A stretch of DNA of 29,168 nucleotides from a virus, in IMG/VR virus record IMGVR_UViG_3300037285_000166, positions 1 through 29,168 of that record, one strand, 5' to 3'. Position numbers and translations under genes: made by a program. How positions within the stretch are numbered: the stretch's first letter is position 1; each line of letters opens with the position of its first letter. This document shows positions 1 to 29,168 of this stretch, in pieces. A model generated the notes under the pieces. It worked only from the letters and a program-made list of their open reading frames with translations. It did not search any database and was not told the DNA's origin.

Positions 1-1924
1 CGCCGATGTCCCAGAAGGTATGCACAGGGACGTTGTTGACGTGTGGGATCTGGCAGATGCGGCCTTGCGCGCGCGCTGCAGCGATCTGCGGGGCGTACCA
101 TGTGCCCTGCGTGCTTTGCTGCCAGCACTCGGCGGGCGTCGACGGGTATTCCCGCCACATCTTTTCGGTGTCGCCGTTCTGCTCGTTTTCGAGCGTCATG
201 ATGTACCAGGCGCGCTGTGGCAGGATCAGGCGCTTGTTGCGCTCGATCTCGACCTGATCGAAGTAATCGTGCCATTCGGGCGCAATGCGCACATGGCGCG
301 GATCGGTCTGGTATTCCGGCAGATCGTGCCACGCGAAGAAGTGAAACTTCATTTCCTTCGGCGCAAGCGGGCGCGGATCGAGGGCGCGGCGCTCGGCGCG
401 GGTTGCTATCTTGTGGAACTCGCCTTCCTGCCCCTCTGCGGTGCTTTCAATGCTGGCGATGCCCGATGCCGGTACTGCGGCCAGCGAACCGGTGACGATC
501 TCGGCTGCCTTGCTCGGGTGTTCGGCGGCGATCTTGCCCATTTCCGAGACGTGCAGGCGGTGGATCGTGCCTGACCGCATGGACGTGGCCACGCGGATCG
601 ACGAGTTGTTCTTGAAAAGGATCTCGCTCGTGTTGCTCGTCTGGATTGGGTAGAGGTCTTTGACGATCTGCGGCAGGTTGTCGTAAGCGAACTTCGCCTT
701 GTCGCGGAAGAACGATTCCGCATGCGGCAGCGACTGCGCGATGATCCCGCACCTCTGGTTGTCGTTGAAGATGGCGTGATCGGTGAATGAGATCACGATC
801 ACCGTCGTGTTGTGGCTGACCATCCCCTCGGCGATGAACGTGCCGGTGCTGGTCTCCAGCGCGATCATGTCGACCTCACCGACCGGCTCGATGGAGACGA
901 TCTCGTTCCAAGCGGCGTTGTCCATGTTCCTCTTGCCGGGCATTTCCTTGCCCTCCCAAAACCGGAAGCTGCGCTGCAATCCGCGCGTCGGGCGTGTCTC
1001 TCCGATCAGACGAAACAATTCATTCGTGCGGCTGAACACCAGCTTGGGAACCGGCGTTGTGCCGTGCTTGGACTCGCGCTGCCCTTCATCGTGTTCAATG
1101 CGATAGTGGTACTGCCTGTCCTGCGCATACGAGACCATGCGATCCCATACGGGTCCGGGGCGCTGCGACACGCATACCGACGCACCAGACCGAGACGGCA
1201 GCGACAGACTGCCTTCCCCATCAATCATGCCGCCAAACCATCCATCTTCGAACTGTCCGGCTTCCCATGGCACGCAGATAGAGCGCACCTGATGCCCTAC
1301 GGTTAGATTGCGCTCTGCGTTCGGCGCCTTCCGGTCCATTGCCCGCCAGAACGGTTGCCTTTTCACTCCACTGCGAGCCAGGAATGGGTGTTGATCCGTG
1401 CAAACGACTGCCCGGCCATCCGCAAACTGGACGCGATATCCGTAGCGCCGAACCTTTTTGCATGCTTGCACCGTTGCCGTGCGCATCTTTCGGGCCGCGC
1501 CACGGCCGCCTGGCACATGTTCATCGACGCCAATGACCTCGTCACCAGGTTGAAGGGTGTCGATGCGGACCCACTGCAAATCGGCGGTCAGAACACGCGT
1601 TTCGCAATCCAGACAAAACCCCATCTGACGGGCTTTAAGAATCACGTTCCGCGTGTGCAGGTCTGCGAGGAACATGCGCTGCACGAGGTTCGGCTTGAAC
1701 GGTATGACGGCGCCTTCTTGGTGCTCGTCATCCTTGGTCATGATCTTGTAAAGCTGGCCTGAGCATATCCGCCAGAAGGGATCCTTGAGGCAGGCCAGCA
1801 TCTCGGTGTCGTTGCGCGGCACATAGTCGATCGGCAGAGGATCGGGCAGCTGCGCAATGTCTGCGGCCGCCTCGATCTCTGCGGGGAAAGCCCCTTGGTG
1901 GGATTTATGCGCCTGCACGGTCAT
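1..1924 (-). CDS. terL: Phage terminase large subunit (TerL) interrupted by an intein; C-terminus beyond the left edge
   Basis: Motor ATPase and nuclease that packages phage DNA into the prohead. The frame is open from ATG 1924 to the edge (641 complete codons): N-extein residues 1-103, intein 104-372, then at least 269 C-extein residues. The N-extein ends in KARQMGF and the C-extein begins TTVIV; joined they give a deviant Walker A loop (ARQMGFTT). Further on are a Walker B-like segment (RLHVSEMGKIA), the coupling motif STAEGQ, and TFWDIG at the very edge, where the RNase H-like nuclease domain of this family begins. The start is fixed by a TGATG overlap with the upstream gene. Function requires splicing of the intein. 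Family and intein are seen directly in the translation; activity is inferred. Confidence 0.93.
   Translation of the reverse strand, partial: MTVQAHKSHQGAFPAEIEAAADIAQLPDPLPIDYVPRNDTEMLACLKDPFWRICSGQLYKIMTKDDEHQEGAVIPFKPNLVQRMFLADLHTRNVILKARQMGFCLDCETRVLTADLQWVRIDTLQPGDEVIGVDEHVPGGRGAARKMRTATVQACKKVRRYGYRVQFADGRAVVCTDQHPFLARSGVKRQPFWRAMDRKAPNAERNLTVGHQVRSICVPWEAGQFEDGWFGGMIDGEGSLSLPSRSGASVCVSQRPGPVWDRMVSYAQDRQYHYRIEHDEGQRESKHGTTPVPKLVFSRTNELFRLIGETRPTRGLQRSFRFWEGKEMPGKRNMDNAAWNEIVSIEPVGEVDMIALETSTGTFIAEGMVSHNTTVIVISFTDHAIFNDNQRCGIIAQSLPHAESFFRDKAKFAYDNLPQIVKDLYPIQTSNTSEILFKNNSSIRVATSMRSGTIHRLHVSEMGKIAAEHPSKAAEIVTGSLAAVPASGIASIESTAEGQEGEFHKIATRAERRALDPRPLAPKEMKFHFFAWHDLPEYQTDPRHVRIAPEWHDYFDQVEIERNKRLILPQRAWYIMTLENEQNGDTEKMWREYPSTPAECWQQSTQGTWYAPQIAAARAQGRICQIPHVNNVPVHTFWDIG
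809..1615 (-). other. Intein (269 aa) with LAGLIDADG-type homing endonuclease motif, inserted in the TerL Walker A loop
   Basis: Self-splicing protein insert. It begins with Cys1 in block A (CLDCETRVLTADLQWV, then LQPGDEVIGVDE), has block B with T73 and H76 (VCTDQHPFLA), a block F-like stretch (VDMIALETSTGTFIAEG) and ends in SHN followed by Thr as the +1 extein residue. These are the residues required for standard splicing (Cys1, block B His, His-Asn, Thr+1). The middle holds one LAGLIDADG-like motif at intein residues 125-137 (GWFGGMIDGEGSL) with acidic residues kept; I see no clear second motif, so the endonuclease is either a single-motif type or eroded. It sits exactly between F103 and T373, in frame, in the ATP-binding loop, a typical essential-site insertion. 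Confidence 0.93.
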
Positions 1925-2259
1925 CAGCCTGGCCGCTGCTCATCCTGCGGCACGCGCACAGAGTTGGCCGAGACGGGATTGAGGGCGCGCTGGCGAAAGA
2001 ACCCCTTGTGCTGCGGGTTGTTGTGCTCCCAGAGGCGCGCATAGCGGCTCGTGTAGTTGTTGTTGAGCTTCACCCGCCCCGTGTACGGCGCAAACATGGT
2101 TTCCCATCTCAGGCGCTCGCATACGGCCTTGGCCGAGCCGTTGGCGTAGCCTGCGCGCAGCAGTTGGCGCGTGAAGCGATCGAAGAACGCGTAGACCTCG
2201 GGATGCGCCTCGTGGAAACGCCAGAAATCCTCGTTGATCTGGTCCCGCGTGCCTCGCAT
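1924..2259 (-). CDS. Conserved phage protein between TerS and TerL, function unknown (111 aa)
   Basis: Soluble protein with a helical N-terminus (NEDFWRFHEAHPEVYAFFDR) and the segment KLNNNYTSRYARLWEHNNP, a pattern I associate with unnamed proteins beside phage terminase genes. It overlaps the TerS stop and the TerL start by one base each (TGATG on both sides), so the three genes are translationally coupled, which suggests a role in DNA packaging. No catalytic motif is visible. Confidence 0.8.
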   Translation of the reverse strand: MRGTRDQINEDFWRFHEAHPEVYAFFDRFTRQLLRAGYANGSAKAVCERLRWETMFAPYTGRVKLNNNYTSRYARLWEHNNPQHKGFFRQRALNPVSANSVRVPQDEQRPG

Positions 2260-3128
2260 CAGTCGCCATCCTCATGGTCTTCGGGAAACAGCCGGTGGCG
2301 GTTGGCCTGCGCATACTTCGGGTCGAGAGGCGGTGAAGCGGCATTGATGTTCCGCGCGGCCTGCAGCAGTTCCTCGCTGACGTTCAGGTCCACGCTGTCG
2401 TTGAAGAACTTGAGATGCCGGGCGACGTGCTCGAGGGCCTTGGCGCGGTCGGCGATCTTGATCTCGATGCCTTCTTTGGTCTGCTTCACGCCATCGTAGA
2501 GCGGATGCGAGACTGCGCCGCGGGTGTCGGATATCTGGACGGTCTCGACGCCTTCGCCGTTGCACTCGGGGCAATCGGGATGCGGCTCGAGCCTGGCGTC
2601 GAACCCATAGCCCCCGGCGTTCTCGGGCATGTTGGGGATGCGACCGCCGGCGTCGATCTTCTCGCCGAGTTCGATCATCACATGGACATCGCCGCCAGAC
2701 TCGTGTTTCAGGAACTGGTCGACGGCGCGCTTGTATTCGCGCTCGGTGCGCCACTGGTATTCGTGTTGCTCGCCATAGCAGTGACGGCAGCATCGACGTT
2801 CGACACGGACGATGTCGTTCACGTCGCCGGTTGCGGTTTCCCAGAGGCGCTTGAGGACGTCGTGGTGTTCGATCCTGAGCTTCTGCGCGATCTCGCCTTC
2901 CAGTTCGCTGATGCGACCCCTCACGTCGTGGAACGTCAAAAGCTCATGGGCGATCGCTCGGGCCCCTGACTTGTTGTATCCGGCGTCTCGTGCGGATCGG
3001 GCTCCGTTGTGGTCTTTCACGTATTCGAGGCAGAAACGCTCACGGCCCCAGGTCAATCCAGACGGGGCATATCGCTTGGCGTGCTTGGTCCGTTCTGATT
3101 TCGACGGCGTGGGTTTCTTGGGGGCCAT
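2259..3128 (-). CDS. terS: Terminase small subunit (TerS) with DnaJ-like Cys pairs
   Basis: DNA-recognition subunit of the packaging terminase, 289 aa. After a basic leader comes a Terminase_2-like helical N-domain (RERFCLEYVKDHNGARSARD, then AGYNKSGARAIAHELL), then the segment LRIEHHDVLKRLWETATGDV. The middle carries two Cys pairs (CRHCYGE and CPECNGEG) like a zinc ribbon, followed by HPLYDGVKQTKEGIEIK, usual in this long TerS type. I prefer ATG 3128 (MAPKKPTP), preceded by GGACGAG, over a TTG 12 codons upstream. It leads the leftward packaging operon and overlaps the next gene by one base. Confidence 0.88.
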   Translation of the reverse strand: MAPKKPTPSKSERTKHAKRYAPSGLTWGRERFCLEYVKDHNGARSARDAGYNKSGARAIAHELLTFHDVRGRISELEGEIAQKLRIEHHDVLKRLWETATGDVNDIVRVERRCCRHCYGEQHEYQWRTEREYKRAVDQFLKHESGGDVHVMIELGEKIDAGGRIPNMPENAGGYGFDARLEPHPDCPECNGEGVETVQISDTRGAVSHPLYDGVKQTKEGIEIKIADRAKALEHVARHLKFFNDSVDLNVSEELLQAARNINAASPPLDPKYAQANRHRLFPEDHEDGD

Positions 3129-3234
3129 TCTACTCGTCCAGTCGCACAATGATGTAATGGGCAATCAGATAGCACAATCGGGGGCGTCAGTCGATAGTCT
3201 GCGATGCGGCGACAGCGCAAGGTGTTGTGGTCTC

Positions 3235-3335
3235 GCACGCGCATTACCACCACCACCACCATATCTAGCTTCTGGCTTCTGGACTCTAGGGCTTAACCCT
3301 ACCCTTAACCCTACCCTTAACCCAGCCTCAAATCG
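3235..3335. repeat. Decayed copy of the replication-gene linker, with a 12-bp direct repeat
   Basis: This non-coding stretch resembles 10110-10206 inside the DUF1376 replication gene. Both run CACCACCACCACC, then CTTCTGG/ACTCTGG units, GGGCTTAACC, purine/pyrimidine repeats and finally CCCAGCCT. Here the linker carries the 12-mer CTTAACCCTACC at 3292-3303 and 3304-3315, plus a partial third unit to 3323. Read in the replication frame on the minus strand it contains stop codons, so it is not coding. It may be a recombination scar or an iteron-like origin element. Confidence 0.6.
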
Positions 3336-7783: not shown

Positions 7784-7858
7784 GACGGGGAGAGTGCTGG
7801 TTCTCCGATTGGTCTCATAAGCCTATCTACGCGGGTTCGATTCCCGCCCCCGCTACCA
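7784..7858 (+). tRNA. tRNA-Met-like gene, anticodon CAT
   Basis: 75 nt with an encoded ACCA end. The T-arm is perfect (GCGGG-TTCGATT-CCCGC), the anticodon loop is CTCATAA with CAT at 7816-7818, and the 3' acceptor strand CCCCGCT resembles bacterial initiator tRNA. Anticodon stem TTGGT/GCCTA has one T-T mismatch. The acceptor has an A-C mismatch at pair 2 and a G-T pair at position 1, and the D-arm is poor (GAG/CTC only). It may be a degenerate phage tRNA, or a tRNA 3' end kept as an attachment site. Confidence 0.6.
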
Positions 7859-19816: not shown

Positions 19817-20101
19817 ATGATAGGCAAAAAGTGTATCATCCGCTGCTATGCAAGCGGCGTCCATTACGGAACCGTTACCGCACAAGATTGTCGTCAAGTC
19901 ACACTGATAGACAGCCGCCGCCTATGGCGTTGGCACACCGGCGGGAAGGAAAAAGGCGTGAGCCTTAGCACAGTTGCGTTGACTGGCATCGACGTAGCTC
20001 GCAGCAAGGTTGAACCGGCTCTGCCTGAAATTATGCTGCTTGATGTGCTGGAAATCATCCCGGCGAGTAATGTGGCATCTAAAAGCATTGAGGGTGCATG
20101 A
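19817..20101 (+). CDS. DUF6948-like phage protein (94 aa)
   Basis: MIGKKCIIRCYASGVHYGTV, RRLWRWHTGG and EIMLLDVLEIIP match the small phage family found upstream of Gly-rich repeat proteins. ATG 19817 has AAAGGAAATCACT; the TTG/ATG upstream lack a site. The family's function is unknown. Overlaps the next gene by ATGA. Confidence 0.8.
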   Translation: MIGKKCIIRCYASGVHYGTVTAQDCRQVTLIDSRRLWRWHTGGKEKGVSLSTVALTGIDVARSKVEPALPEIMLLDVLEIIPASNVASKSIEGA

Positions 20102-20397
20102 TGATGCAGTCATTCGAGTACTATGAAAACGACGGCTACGGCGACGGCTCCGGCTCCGGCTCCGGCTACGGCTACGGCTCCGGCGAAGGCTACGGCTCCG
20201 GCTCCGGCTTCGGCTCCGTCTCCGGCGACGGCTCCGGCTCCGGCTCCGGCTTCGGCTCCGGCGACGGCGACGGCTCCGGCTTCGGCTCCGGCTCCGGCTA
20301 CGGCTTCGGCTCCGGCTCCGGCTCCGGCTACGGCGAAGGCTACGGCGACGGCTCCGGCGACGGCGAAGGCTACGGCGACGGCTCCGGCGACGGCTGA
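20098..20397 (+). CDS. Gly/Ser/Tyr/Asp-rich repeat protein (99 aa)
   Basis: After MMMQSFEYYENDG nearly every second residue is Gly, the others being Ser, Tyr, Asp, Glu, Phe: units GSGSGYG and GDGSG. Such proteins follow DUF6948 genes in phages. The chain should be disordered; aromatic residues spaced in Gly/Ser resemble condensate-forming sequences. Function unknown. Confidence 0.8.
   Translation: MMMQSFEYYENDGYGDGSGSGSGYGYGSGEGYGSGSGFGSVSGDGSGSGSGFGSGDGDGSGFGSGSGYGFGSGSGSGYGEGYGDGSGDGEGYGDGSGDG
20134..20394. repeat. Hexanucleotide GGCTCC/GGCTAC/GGCGAC array
   Basis: About 43 consecutive six-base units GGC-NNC/NNA in register with the reading frame. Prone to slippage in multiples of six, which would change length without changing frame. 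Opposite-strand Arg-Ser and Pro-Ala frames are by-products. Confidence 0.85.
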
Positions 20398-20878: not shown

Positions 20879-21252
20879 ACATCTACATCAACCTGCGTCA
20901 GCCCCATCGCGGCCAACACCGCCAGCGCGTCGTCACCAACGCAAGCGGTCAGTTTGTCGGGCATGGCCGTCACAGGCGTCAGGCTGAACACCAGCGCCGC
21001 TTGTGCGCGCCGTGCCGCATCCATGTCTATAATGTTGTCAACGTCCCATGAGGGGCGCTGTAGGCCGCTCTGCGCCGCCGTTGTGAATGCGTCAGACACG
21101 ATCAAGCTTGCACAGGCGTAAAGGTTGCCCCCCGCGTCCTGCCAGTTTAGCCCCACGTAGGTTTCTGCATCGTCGGGACGGTAGCCCAATACCATGGCTA
21201 GGTTGTTGGCATCATCCCGCAGCGCCTCGGGGCAAGCGATTGTTAGTCTCAT
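20875..21252 (-). CDS. Phage late protein, unknown (125 aa)
   Basis: MRLTIACPEALRDDANNLAM, YVGLNWQDAGGNLYACASL and ARRAQAALVF match unnamed proteins found beside tail genes in Rhodobacterales prophages. Mixed alpha/beta, no signal peptide. Overlaps the tail gene stop by TGATG. Probably virion-associated or a tail chaperone; inference. Confidence 0.7.
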   Translation of the reverse strand: MRLTIACPEALRDDANNLAMVLGYRPDDAETYVGLNWQDAGGNLYACASLIVSDAFTTAAQSGLQRPSWDVDNIIDMDAARRAQAALVFSLTPVTAMPDKLTACVGDDALAVLAAMGLTQVDVDV

Positions 21253-22541
21253 CAGTAACCTCCTGTAACTGTAACGGTCCAGCCGCGAGAGCGCAGTGTG
21301 TCGATTGCGGCCTCGCCAGTTGCCGAGGGGGCAGAGCCGCCCGATTGGTCAAACACCCCTGCCGCAATACCGGATGCCACGAGCGACACCAGGATGTTGT
21401 CGATGCTGGTTTGCGTCAGTGCGGTGCTGGTAAATGCGTCGGTAAAGTCTCCGCCTTTTACATTGTCGAAGGCATTAGCTGGGAAGCTCGTTAGGCTGGT
21501 GCAGTTATCCCAAGCCAGAAAAAAGTTAGTCCCAGAAGATGTGTCGATGGCTGGGAAGCTGGTGAGGCTAGAGCAGTCACGCCAAGCCGCAGTGAAATCA
21601 GTCCCTGCTGACGTGTCGATCAGAGGAAAGCTCGTCAGGCTTCTGCAGCCCCGCCAAGCCCCAAAGAAGTCTGTCCCCGAAGACGTGTCGATCAGAGGGA
21701 AACTCGTCAGGCTGTCGCAGTTAAACCAAGCCAGCCTGAAACTAGTCCCTGCTGACGTGTCGATCAGAGGGAAACTCGTCAGGCTGTTGCATTTATACCA
21801 AGCAAAAGAGAAATTAGTCCCCGAAGACGTGTCAATAAGGGGGAAGCTGGTAAGGCCAGAGCAGTCGCGCCAAGCCCGAACAAAGCCAGTCCCCGAAGAC
21901 GTGTCGATCAGAGGGAAGGAAGTAAGTTCCGACCATTCGCGCCAATAGCTGCTAAAATCCGTAACCGAACCATAGCTGGCAGTCGCGCCGTTTGCCACAA
22001 AGTAAGCCTCGGTCGCAGCAGCATCCCCCGCACTCAAAGCCCCGTCGCGGATCACCTGCCCGACGATTGCATTGCCCGGGAAATACAGGCCGCCCCTGCC
22101 GCCAATGTCATACGGACCAGCAGGAATGTTCACACCGTAGGAAGCCGTCCCTTGGTCCGTTGCCAGAACCATTGTGCCGGTAAAGCCGCCCGTTGGTACT
22201 GTAACGGACAGGCGATCATCAACCTTGTCCAGCGTGGCGCGGTCGGGGGCTGTCTGATAGATCGGTCTAGCTGCGACAGTTGCTTGCGCGGCGTGGTTGT
22301 CGTTGCCGGAATTGTCCAGCATCAGCCCAACAGGTTGTCCCGCCGTTGTGACAGGCGTGGTGCCTGCGCTATCTTGGAACAGCGTGGACAGGTCGGATGG
22401 GCCGTACCATGCGCCTGTCTCGCTTCCCGTGAACAGATCAGCAGGGGTGAACACGCCGAAAGGCTGTCCGACGCCGAGCCGCCGGCCGAAAGGCGACGGA
22501 ATGCCGTTGAAGGTTTTTTCGAAAGGGCTCTTGAACGGCAT
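21252..22541 (-). CDS. Tail/receptor-binding-like protein with BspA-type leucine-rich repeats (429 aa)
   Basis: N-part (residues 1-195) begins MPFKSPFEKTFNGIPSPFGR and has LDNSGNDNHAAQATVAARP, typical of phage virion proteins with a laminin-G-like fold. Residues 200-370 hold about seven copies of a 24-residue repeat with consensus W..C..LTSFPLIDTSSGT.F..A, the BspA/DUF285 type of leucine-rich repeat known from surface proteins. The C-terminus ends in a small domain (EAAIDTLRSRGWTVTVTGG), the usual last piece of DUF285 proteins. Probably binds the host surface. Confidence 0.8.
   Translation of the reverse strand: MPFKSPFEKTFNGIPSPFGRRLGVGQPFGVFTPADLFTGSETGAWYGPSDLSTLFQDSAGTTPVTTAGQPVGLMLDNSGNDNHAAQATVAARPIYQTAPDRATLDKVDDRLSVTVPTGGFTGTMVLATDQGTASYGVNIPAGPYDIGGRGGLYFPGNAIVGQVIRDGALSAGDAAATEAYFVANGATASYGSVTDFSSYWREWSELTSFPLIDTSSGTGFVRAWRDCSGLTSFPLIDTSSGTNFSFAWYKCNSLTSFPLIDTSAGTSFRLAWFNCDSLTSFPLIDTSSGTDFFGAWRGCRSLTSFPLIDTSAGTDFTAAWRDCSSLTSFPAIDTSSGTNFFLAWDNCTSLTSFPANAFDNVKGGDFTDAFTSTALTQTSIDNILVSLVASGIAAGVFDQSGGSAPSATGEAAIDTLRSRGWTVTVTGGY
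21435..21944. repeat. 72-bp tandem repeats of the tail protein
   Basis: Six complete 72-bp units start at 21944, 21872, 21800, 21728, 21656 and 21584 on the minus strand, with a degenerate seventh. Units are similar but not identical; the core encoding LTSFPLIDTS is best conserved, and the residues around W and C vary. Confidence 0.85.
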
Positions 22542-24863: not shown

Positions 24864-27800
24864 TCAGTCGTAAAGCTGCGGCGCCATGTCCCGCTCTATG
24901 CCCGGTCGCAGCTTGTCGTTGATGTTCACGCCGCGCTGCACGCCCTCGCTCCACCGCTGGCGAGAGCCGATCGACCGGCGGATGCTGGATCCGGTGATCG
25001 GGAACGTCGGGTGCTTCTGATTGAACGCGCGGATCCGCTTGAGAAGCGCGGGCGTCATGCCGCCGCCCTCGGACACCGCCTTGGCAATGTCGCCGTGCAG
25101 GCTCGAGCGTTCGCGGATGATCTTCTTTTCCGCGTCGCGCATGCGGCTCATGTCGTCATACCGCTCGGCCAGCCGGGCCGGGGTGAACCCCATGGCCTGC
25201 ACGATCGCCTCATAGGGCGACACGTCCTCCAGGATCGGATCCCCGTTGCGCGTCTCGACCCCGTCCATGGTGTAGCGCACGCCCTTGGAGATATCGCGCG
25301 CCATCTTGGGAACCATGGCCTCAGCCCCGCGCCACCAGTCTTGTTCAGCCATGTATTGCATGCCGCGGCCCATGCTGAACACGATGCTGGCCGCCGGCCC
25401 CGCGAGCTCGTGAACGTAATGCGTGACCGTGTCTTGCGCGTCCATGTCGTAAAACGGGCCGCGGAACCAAAGGTTCGGGATGCCAATGCGCTCGGACAGT
25501 GCGATCTCGCTGATCTGCCCCGGCACGCCCTTGAGCGCCATCCCCATCATGTAGTTCCAGGCGGCCGTGCCGGTGCTGTTGCCCTCCATCAGAAGCGCGT
25601 CATGCAGCCATTCGTCGATATCGTCGTCATCGCCGCCCGAGAACAGGCCCAGAAGCGTCGTGATGAGGCCGTAGCCCCAGACGCCGGTGATCCCCGCATG
25701 CGCCATCATCGAAAGGCTGATGCCGACCAGTTGCGCCTTGGCTTCGCGGCGTTCCTCGTCGGTCTTGCCCTCAAATGTCTGGTAGGTGTCGCGGAACAGG
25801 CGGTAGATGGCATTCACTTGGAATTGCCTGAAGATGAAGAACACGCGCGGCCAGTCGCCTTGCATGAACCGCGGCCGCGAACTGCCTTGGTAATCGAAAT
25901 GCGTCTTCCACGTCACGGACCCGGCCTTGTCGACCGCGCCCTCGCGCGTGCCGCCCTCGGCCATAGCCATGCGGTACGCGGCGAGGAACGTCACCTCGCG
26001 GTTGGCAACCTCGGCCTTGTGGAAAAGGTACGAGAAGAAGCGCATGATCTTTTCGCGCGTCCCGCTGTATTCCACGCCCGTTTCCGCGACCGATGCAAGG
26101 TCGTGCCCTTGGGTCCGAGTGATGATCCCGCGCTTGTGCGCGCTCTCCAGCGCGTCCTTTTCATCTTGCGACAAGCGGCTCGATGCGGTGGCGTCGCCAC
26201 GCCCGGATGCGAAATCGAGCCCCGCCCGGCCAAGCTGCCGCGCGATCTCGCCCACGCTGGCATTGCGGAACGCCGCGTTCATGATGGGTATGCCCATGAT
26301 CGTTGTCTGCGTCAGGTTGACCATGGCCGCCGCCGGCGTCGCCCCGAGATACCAGACAAAGGCCAGTGACGTGATCGCCGTCGAGGCGCCCGACACTTGC
26401 GGGTTCATGGTCCACTGGTGCCGGCGGTTCATCTCGTCGACCACCAGCGTCGCGCGGTTGCTGTCGCTGCTCTGCGCGGCTTCGGTATATGCCTCGTCGA
26501 TCGCGTCCTGCATCTGCAGCCCGTATTTCAACCGCGCCAGTTGGTGCGAGCCGTGGAACATATGGTGCGTGTAGGCGCGCAGCGCGTCCTTCTGGTAGCC
26601 TTGGCGGCCTTTCCGGTGGATCCGGTTGGTGCGGATCGACTGATCGGGCAAGGTTTCCAGCCACCTCTGCCAGACCGTGTCCATGACCGCGGGCTCGACG
26701 TCCCAGGTGGCCAGCAGGTTTTCCATGTCGGCCACGAAGGTCGGATCAACCATGGTCTTGAGATCGGTATCCGCCGCGCCGAGAACGCCCGTGTCGACGG
26801 TGTAGCCCTCGGCCTCCAGCTTCTTGGCCTCTTCGCGCTGCTTGCGCTGCTTCTCGAACCGCGAGAATGACACCACCTTGCCCTTGCTGTCGCGCGCCGC
26901 CACGAAGTAGCTGCCGAACCGGGCGAGCGGGAAATAGACGCCTTGCAGGCGGTTCGACTCGAACTGCTGCCGCATCTCTGCAATGCGCGCGTTCTGCGCC
27001 CAGCCCATGCGCGCCTTGGCCTGTTTCAGCTTTGCCTTCGCGTCTTCGGCCGCGTCGCGCTTTTCCTTGCCGGTCAGGCCCTCGTCGGCGATGCGCTGCA
27101 TCTCCTTGTCATGGGCCCGCTGCGCCCGCTTGACCGCGACGCGCTGCGCGTTCTTGACATTCTCGATGATGGCTTTCTCGAACTCGTCGGCGATATTGCC
27201 ATAGTCGTCGCGCACCTTGCGGAACAGAGTCCGGAACTCGGGCGGCAGATCCTTGAACTCGGCGCGCAGCAGATCGTAATCCGCGGCGCGGACCCGGTTC
27301 TGCTTCTGCGAATAGTTGCCCGGGTCGAAAGCCTTGGACGGGTCGATCCCGGCCAGCGTGGACCGGTGCATCAGGTCCATCATCCGGCCGTTGGCCTCGG
27401 TATCCTTGCCGGCCTTGCTCATCCAGTCCCGCGCAAGCTCGTCGGTCTTGGCGTGCCATTCCTGGCGCAGCGTGTCCATCAGGTCTTTCAGCTTGAGATA
27501 AACCCGCGCTGACGGCAGGTTGCGCCCCAATTCCTCGAAGAGCGGCCGCCCCGGCACCAGCGCCAGCACGTTGGCCTTGCCCGTGCGCCCGCCCATGGAG
27601 TCGGTCAGAAGGTCGTTCCAGAGATCCTTGCCCTTGGAGCGCCATGTCCGCGGGGCGCCCATCGGCACGCCCTTGGGGGACGCGGGGTCGCGCCGCATGC
27701 CCTGCACCGGCCCGCGCACGCCGCGCCCGCCGCCGGGGCCGCGCCCGCCGATTTCGCCCGACCGGATCCGCTCGAACACCTCGGCGGCCTCGTTGGCCCC

Positions 27801-29168
27801 GTTGCGGCGCAGCGCGTTCAGAAACGCCTCGACGATCCGGCGCAGCTTCTCGAACGCGCGCCCGGCTGAGTCCTGCGTGTCGCGCTGGTCCATCCATTCG
27901 CGGAACGCCTCAGCCACCATCTCTTCGGATTTCTGCGGCGTGTTCAGATCGGGATAGGTGCGGTTGATCCGGTCGCGCACCGATCGGTTGTTGCGCGCGG
28001 CGCGCACCATGGCCTGCCACTCGCCTTCGGTGAAGAGCCCGTAATCCCGGCCCCACAAGGCGCGGTTGCGCATGGCGTGGATGACCTCGTGCCGCATGAC
28101 GCCGCGGGCGCCCACATCGGACCCCGTGCCGGCGCCGATCACGCCCTCATGAAAGAACCCGTCGAGGGTCGTGCCGTCATACCGGAACCCTTTGGCGACG
28201 CGCAGCCGCACCTGGCCGGAAATGCCGATGCGGTTCAACTCGTCCTGCAGATCGGTCTTGAGGCTTTCGAACGCCTCGCGCGTGTAAGGCGCCGGGCTGG
28301 CGTCGCCCGCGTCGCGGCGGCGGCCCTGCGGCTTCGATGCGTCGATGATAGCCTGCGCTTCTTCCTTGTGCGCGGTCGCCTGAAACTCCGTGCCAAGGCT
28401 GGTTTCGTATTCGGACAGCACCTGCCGCAGCGTTTCGGTATCCAAGGATTTCTTGAACGGGCCGGAGCGTGCGGTGAAGTCGCCCAGCATGTCGCGCACG
28501 ACGGGGTTGAAGATATAAGGCTTGTAGCCTCGTGTCCGCTCGATCGTCATCTGGAAGTCGTTGGGCTTCTGCGTCCGCTGCACCGTCATGACACCGTCCG
28601 CAGTTTTCAACAGGGCCGGGGCCCCATCGGTGCCGGCGATGGCGGCAAACCGGATGGCCTGATCGACATTCGCGAACGCGCGCGGCGCCTCTGCAAGCGC
28701 GTCCATCGCCGAGAAGTCCTTGGGCAAGAGAAGTCCCTGATCGAGCGTCCCGTCATCGCGGCGGAACATGACGATCTGCCCCTTGCCGCTGAACTTGGAG
28801 AAGCCGTTGATGACGTTGCCGGTGACGATCTGGCGCGTCTCGCGGGTCTGCGCCTGCCCTTTCTCGAAGGCGTTGCGCACGGTCTGCTCGCGCGCCGTGG
28901 TGATCGAATAGTCGTCCGACCCTTCACCGACCAGCCGGCCCATGGGAATCGTGACCTGTTTCCCGGGCGACGCCAGCGCGATCTTGACCGACATTTTCGA
29001 CGGCGCGACGCTGTCGGACATGCGTGACAGGTCCACGCCCAAGGCCGTCGCATAGACGGTTTCCTGCGTTTCGCCGTTCTGCAGGAACGACACCATCAGC
29101 GGGCGGCCGGGGGCCATCTGCCTGACGATCTCCTTGATCTGCCTGACACGATCCTGCTTCGACTGCAC
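24864..29168 (-). CDS. Giant polyvalent phage protein, C-terminal 1434 aa (PLxRFG, HExxH); start probably beyond the right edge
   Basis: One open frame to the edge; the GTG at 29168 is probably not the start. Residues 25-170 (VDLSRMSDSVAPSKMSVKIA, GEGSDDYSITTAREQ, VTGNVINGFSKF, GQIVMFRRDDGTLDQGLLLP) resemble the end of the Strawberry-notch helicase/methylase part of DarB-like proteins. Residues 350-372 contain HEVIH (360-364), a zinc metallopeptidase motif. The PLxRFG motif PLARFG is at 747-752. Later hydrophobic segments occur near residues 929-950 and 1148-1175, the latter followed by an acidic run. Such proteins are injected with phage DNA and act against host defence. Last 80 residues resemble a virion-attachment tail. 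Confidence 0.82.
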   Translation of the reverse strand: MQSKQDRVRQIKEIVRQMAPGRPLMVSFLQNGETQETVYATALGVDLSRMSDSVAPSKMSVKIALASPGKQVTIPMGRLVGEGSDDYSITTAREQTVRNAFEKGQAQTRETRQIVTGNVINGFSKFSGKGQIVMFRRDDGTLDQGLLLPKDFSAMDALAEAPRAFANVDQAIRFAAIAGTDGAPALLKTADGVMTVQRTQKPNDFQMTIERTRGYKPYIFNPVVRDMLGDFTARSGPFKKSLDTETLRQVLSEYETSLGTEFQATAHKEEAQAIIDASKPQGRRRDAGDASPAPYTREAFESLKTDLQDELNRIGISGQVRLRVAKGFRYDGTTLDGFFHEGVIGAGTGSDVGARGVMRHEVIHAMRNRALWGRDYGLFTEGEWQAMVRAARNNRSVRDRINRTYPDLNTPQKSEEMVAEAFREWMDQRDTQDSAGRAFEKLRRIVEAFLNALRRNGANEAAEVFERIRSGEIGGRGPGGGRGVRGPVQGMRRDPASPKGVPMGAPRTWRSKGKDLWNDLLTDSMGGRTGKANVLALVPGRPLFEELGRNLPSARVYLKLKDLMDTLRQEWHAKTDELARDWMSKAGKDTEANGRMMDLMHRSTLAGIDPSKAFDPGNYSQKQNRVRAADYDLLRAEFKDLPPEFRTLFRKVRDDYGNIADEFEKAIIENVKNAQRVAVKRAQRAHDKEMQRIADEGLTGKEKRDAAEDAKAKLKQAKARMGWAQNARIAEMRQQFESNRLQGVYFPLARFGSYFVAARDSKGKVVSFSRFEKQRKQREEAKKLEAEGYTVDTGVLGAADTDLKTMVDPTFVADMENLLATWDVEPAVMDTVWQRWLETLPDQSIRTNRIHRKGRQGYQKDALRAYTHHMFHGSHQLARLKYGLQMQDAIDEAYTEAAQSSDSNRATLVVDEMNRRHQWTMNPQVSGASTAITSLAFVWYLGATPAAAMVNLTQTTIMGIPIMNAAFRNASVGEIARQLGRAGLDFASGRGDATASSRLSQDEKDALESAHKRGIITRTQGHDLASVAETGVEYSGTREKIMRFFSYLFHKAEVANREVTFLAAYRMAMAEGGTREGAVDKAGSVTWKTHFDYQGSSRPRFMQGDWPRVFFIFRQFQVNAIYRLFRDTYQTFEGKTDEERREAKAQLVGISLSMMAHAGITGVWGYGLITTLLGLFSGGDDDDIDEWLHDALLMEGNSTGTAAWNYMMGMALKGVPGQISEIALSERIGIPNLWFRGPFYDMDAQDTVTHYVHELAGPAASIVFSMGRGMQYMAEQDWWRGAEAMVPKMARDISKGVRYTMDGVETRNGDPILEDVSPYEAIVQAMGFTPARLAERYDDMSRMRDAEKKIIRERSSLHGDIAKAVSEGGGMTPALLKRIRAFNQKHPTFPITGSSIRRSIGSRQRWSEGVQRGVNINDKLRPGIERDMAPQLYD

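Follow-up and report, generated by a model that had tools for sequence, protein, structure and literature searches.

The mycobacteriophage inteins TerL1-a and TerL1-b lie in the ATP-binding loop of the terminase large subunit (TerL), the former between Lys and Thr, and in the P-loop -b intein of phage BAKA, block C and block E each contain a motif (PMC5050341). Inteins of the C1 mycobacteriophage group Pham3880-g occupy another point of another terminase-like protein (SSPY/C...HN/S, with Ser at +1). For one of these, ScottMcG gp245, splicing has been shown (Kelley et al. 2016, PMC5050341). Gordonia phages (Woesvirus) harbor an intein in the portal protein (Hello gp8, 275 aa).

The stretch of viral DNA analysed here (hereafter the window; 29,168 nucleotides, positions 1 to 29,168 of IMG/VR record IMGVR_UViG_3300037285_000166) carries an insert in TerL that resembles each of these systems in part. 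It shares the ATP-binding loop with TerL1-a and TerL1-b, neither of which was among the tblastn matches of the window intein or of a same-site relative, and has a single motif, unlike BAKA. Alice gp239, a C1 intein from the same group as ScottMcG gp245, likewise comprises 269 aa with Cys1, an HN end and one DGEG-type motif, and is 31-36% identical over the full length; ScottMcG gp245 is of the same size. Hello gp8 also has one motif, Cys1 and an SHN/T end, with about 29% identity, but in a different host protein. The sequence-only reading had singled out the small size, the single motif and Thr+1 as an unusual combination. This did not hold, because relatives at the same site and the Gordonia portal intein share all three. 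The intein is another example of an already known type of element, not a new kind.

The minus-strand frame of TerL opens with the ATG at 1922-1924 and stays open up to the edge, where it leaves the window, so that the C-terminal end of the protein lies outside the view. The open frame spans 640 codons of exteins and intein, with TerL residues 1-103 before the insert and 269 residues after it. The insertion point falls inside the motif ARQMGF/TT, which we regard as the putative Walker A loop on the basis of the motif itself, the terminase match and what PMC5050341 describes for P-loop inteins of terminases. The joined extein matched phrog_2, the terminase large subunit family, at E 5.7e-19 and phrog_26724 at E 6e-60. 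A terminase small subunit gene is located upstream of TerL (Table 1). Translation reproduced exactly the coordinates and length that the sequence-only reading had given for the intein (809-1615, 269 aa without a stop, between F103 and T373). The residues it had named were each present, i.e., Cys1, the block B Thr-His (T73-D-Q-H76), the C-terminal His-Asn (S267-H268-N269), Thr+1 and one LAGLIDADG-type motif (F127-GGMIDGE-G135).

Table 1 Features of the interrupted terminase locus (positions in the window)
Feature	Position	Strand	Evidence
Putative intein, 269 aa, C1-N269, Hint plus single-motif LAGLIDADG endonuclease	809..1615	-	sequence, tblastn, AlphaFold2, Foldseek PDB/BFVD, same-site clade
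TerL N-extein M1-F103, ending in Walker A-like KARQMGF	1616..1924	-	ORF translation, phrog_26724, phrog_2
TerL C-extein from Thr+1 (T373), remaining ATPase	1..808	-	homologues 51-74% identical over the extein
Block B T73-D-Q-H76	1388..1399	-	H76 conserved throughout the 31 relatives
Endonuclease region, residues about 110-225	941..1288	-	DSSP of the model; LAGLIDADG_3 matches of relatives; dN far lower than dS versus L070
LAGLIDADG-type motif FGGMIDGEGSL with E134 as presumed catalytic acid	1205..1237	-	G129, D132, G133, E134 and G135 invariant (31 relatives)
Block F position 4, Ala252	860..862	-	Asp in 25/26 same-site inteins; gp41-1 intein alignment
Penultimate His268 and C-terminal Asn269	809..814	-	HN in 26/26 same-site inteins
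Terminase small subunit	2259..3164	-	phrog_51 E 1.5e-35

Five other viral contigs carry the same insert, which rules out an assembly artefact. Over the shared stretch, their inteins differ from that of the window at one residue only (F78 in the window, W78 in all five). At the nucleotide level, the differences from these sister contigs cluster at window positions 504-662, in the C-extein 150-300 nt past the intein, and positions 663-2333 are nearly devoid of them; this pattern could be a co-conversion tract.

Sequence and structure comparisons both point to an intein. A tblastn search with the intein gave matches far above chance in 144 phage records, spanning most of its length or the whole of it, the best covering all 269 residues (E 2e-29). 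Among the intein and Hint profiles, NCBIfam NF038136, a model of the Rv2578c-type intein-containing radical SAM protein, covered residues 1-269 (E 1.2e-18), although that host protein is bacterial and not a phage motor. Pfam Intein_splicing matched weakly (E 0.0036, under its cut-off) and TIGR01445 slightly under its own. The AlphaFold2 model, built on an alignment of 31 relatives (mean pLDDT 92.6, pTM 0.89), shows a Hint splicing fold enclosing one complete LAGLIDADG core. According to DSSP of the model, residues 122-207 form one alpha-beta-beta-alpha-beta-beta-alpha unit, from helix 122-134, which bears the DGEG motif, to helix 197-207; the remainder fits the Hint fold. In the PDB, Foldseek matched the model to inteins (E 1e-7), including those of DnaB, gp41-1 and VMA, and the closest BFVD entry was the viral protein A0A411CH48 (1007 aa, TM 0.84 by query).

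Taken with the in-frame position and the precise empty sites described below, Cys1, T73..H76, H268-N269, Thr+1 and the Hint fold place the insert in class 1. At block F, Ala252 stands in place of Asp; this Asp was not used for class membership because it is the commonest residue and assists splicing but is not obligatory. A class 3 intein was ruled out by the presence of Cys1 and the lack of Cys at F:4. The earlier proposal of a LAGLIDADG intein inside the TerL ATP-binding loop is thus borne out by residues, profile and tblastn matches, predicted fold and empty sites. We estimate a probability of about 0.93 for a class 1 intein that brings along a homing endonuclease of its own, likely excises itself and likely homes into intein-free terminase genes. 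As far as sequence and model can tell, this is a real and well-supported single-motif element, for which both splicing and cutting are predicted.

Two readings would deny the element this role. If this terminase family simply had the segment as a normal domain, homologues should contain it; as the sequence-only reading had foreseen for a genuine intein, they do not. In L007, the nearest terminase at 74% identity, the sequence is KARQLGF-TTLIAI, the terminases of BcepMigl and F116 likewise align straight across the site, and the motif ARQxGx[S/T]T was uninterrupted in all intein-free homologues checked. Given also that the structure and residues of the insert are those of inteins, an ordinary domain is refuted for practical purposes. 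Alternatively, the insert could be a decaying relic unable to splice, leaving a broken terminase. The block F substitution is the one feature in favor of this; the frame is open over all 640 codons, five more contigs share the intein, the other splicing residues are all kept and dN/dS is low, which makes a dead intein very improbable. The apparent 90% terminase identity of L009 and L006, whose DNA matches that of the window almost completely, was read as an alignment entering the intein end.

Filled and empty sites coexist among related terminases. Pattern scans of viral contigs yielded 19 stretches of ARQ[ML]GF followed by Cys versus at least 120 of ARQ[ML]GF-TT; by score, 100 of the latter are clear relatives of the window terminase. 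Among 395 genomes of the Mesobacterium pallidum family, five close TerLs were found, three filled and two empty, and the coordinates of one family carrier equal those of the Roseicitreum antarcticum plasmid NZ_CP061502.1. Such filled and empty alleles are close enough for direct homing and splicing tests.

In total, 26 distinct inteins, including that of the window, occupy exactly this site. All begin with Cys and end with His-Asn, and the +1 residue is Ser in 18 and Thr in 8. Twenty-five of them comprise 252-273 aa and have one motif, the exception being L236. H76 and the motif residues G129, D132, G133, E134 and G135 are invariant across 31 relatives. The other same-site inteins, from uncultured phages, M. 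pallidum and R. antarcticum, share with the window the insertion point, the single motif and, where tested, the clade, but keep the block F Asp, and their exteins are 24-59% identical to that of the window. The clade ties together terminases of uncultured phages. We found no published account of a single-motif TerL intein clade at this site in the literature searched, which took in only a minority of subscription journals. The TerL inteins of Microcystis phage Mic1 sit at other sites and were unmatched by the window intein, and the LittleE TerL intein also lies elsewhere.

Two variants of the same-site pattern were observed. The viral contigs L236 and L241 carry a 161-aa TerL intein without the endonuclease motif, a natural mini-intein derivative that fits the known homing cycle. 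In contig L025 (124-972), an intein of the same clade lies just upstream of the usual site (QVL/C...HN/CLKGRQVGITT, with Cys+1), possibly by a site shift.

The phylogenies of intein and terminase are in conflict. The 17 terminase inteins on the intein tree form one clade (support 98/96), within which the window pairs with L070 from M. pallidum (98/91). In the extein tree, the window instead pairs with the intein-free L007 (100/99), and forcing window and L070 together on the extein data was 45 log units worse (AU p 0.00035). Consistent with this, the two are 78.8% identical in the intein versus 53.6% in the extein. The conflicting trees therefore show that the intein has moved between phages, one or both of the two terminases having gained it sideways. 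Between the window and L070 inteins, dN was 0.18 and dS about 1.2, with a similar constraint in the endonuclease part (dN 0.17, dS 0.93) as in the splicing part; because dS is near saturation, the selection estimate is rough and only the direction dN<dS is safe.

From its anatomy, the intein most likely removes itself, as demonstrated experimentally for a relative. After translation, Cys1 would form a thioester, Thr+1 would then accept the N-extein, and cyclisation of Asn269 would leave TerL joined as ARQMGF-TT. Since the ATP-binding loop is split by the insert, packaging can soundly be expected to depend on this splicing. Once free, the intein most likely functions as a homing endonuclease of the LAGLIDADG type: it would cut terminase genes that lack the intein in co-infecting phages, and the cut genes would receive a copy. 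We infer that such cutting caused the movement between terminases.

The endonuclease core is recognizable by the motif helix (FGGMIDGEG) with the acid E134 and by the alpha-beta-beta-alpha-beta-beta-alpha unit of the model. A two-motif enzyme with a hidden second half was discarded, as the model contains one core only. A single LAGLIDADG core is known to form a dimer and hence to require a symmetric target (PMC3943268), and the window endonuclease should therefore act as a homodimer. At the insertion point, palindromy was not above chance. A weak symmetric center 7 nt downstream had the top raw score of 201 offsets in the 26 filled sites, albeit chosen post hoc, and ranked second in two-arm covariation; it was not raised in 128 empty sites. 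Wobble-position composition and relatedness are confounders of this signal.

These data bear on the question of whether the intein still splices while its endonuclease no longer cuts, such that it is now inherited vertically. Pfam LAGLIDADG_3 matched 11 of the 31 relatives scanned and missed the window member, and this, together with the single motif, an insertion point that is not itself a center of symmetry and the existence of an endonuclease-less relative, would fit a loss of cutting. However, the motif and Glu134 are intact and invariant, the endonuclease part is constrained like the splicing part, and the intein has moved relative to L070. We thus consider a loss of cutting unlikely and retain an active homing endonuclease as the preferred reading.

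Finally, the block F substitution raises the possibility of slow splicing. The Asp present in 25 of 26 same-site inteins is replaced by Ala in the window only, and Ala252 is common to the population copies in the five sister contigs. The Asp, at position F:4, assists the first acyl shift (PMC7765530); PMC4031507 characterizes block F as one of lesser conservation. In the C1 group, Alice has Ala at the aligned block F position, and a member of this intein family is the sole tested terminase-type intein with a readily visible unspliced precursor (PMC5050341). By analogy, this is suggestive of a link between Ala and precursor in the C1 group, with the Ala read in Alice and the precursor reported for ScottMcG gp245, another family member. 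Ala252 could slow or uncouple splicing in the window intein, and conditional splicing is possible, the unusual Ala being the sole hint of it.

Under such a scenario, loss of the Asp would weaken the first step, TerL would wait as an inactive precursor and packaging would be delayed. The uniqueness of Ala252 among the same-site inteins, its persistence in the population, the assisting role of the Asp and the C1 family speak for it; against it, the argument hangs on one residue, in a block that is less conserved, and this Asp is missing from many members of the wider intein family. We regard slow splicing as a tentative reading with odds well below even. A broader scenario would join these threads: a large clade of single-motif inteins, specialised on the TerL loop, that moves from phage to phage (several of these phages residing in alphaproteobacterial genomes) by means of homodimers acting on the weakly symmetric +7-nt site, with the window member, devoid of the block F Asp, splicing slowly and timing packaging. 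As a whole, this combination is doubtful. The window intein and the 79% identical, Asp-bearing L070 intein provide a natural pair in which to examine how this residue affects the rate of splicing in a motor that the phage cannot do without.

Elsewhere in the window, a telomere-like direct repeat (CTTAACCCTACC, 2.7 perfect copies) lies at 3292-3323, upstream of the small terminase gene, and the only tRNA gene, tRNA-Met(CAT), at 7784-7858. Repeats of 6 bp, in 44 copies over 264 bp (at 20098-20397), encode Gly-Ser/Tyr in one frame, with other frames open too. At 21252-22541, a 429-aa protein contains about six 24-aa repeats (LTSFPLIDTSSGT.F..AW..C) and matches no Pfam family, only phrog_34853, a family that carries no functional annotation. 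The region 24864-29168 encodes a 1434-aa polyvalent protein with an LPD39 domain and a match to the DarB-like phrog_10089, the frame of which reaches the far window edge.
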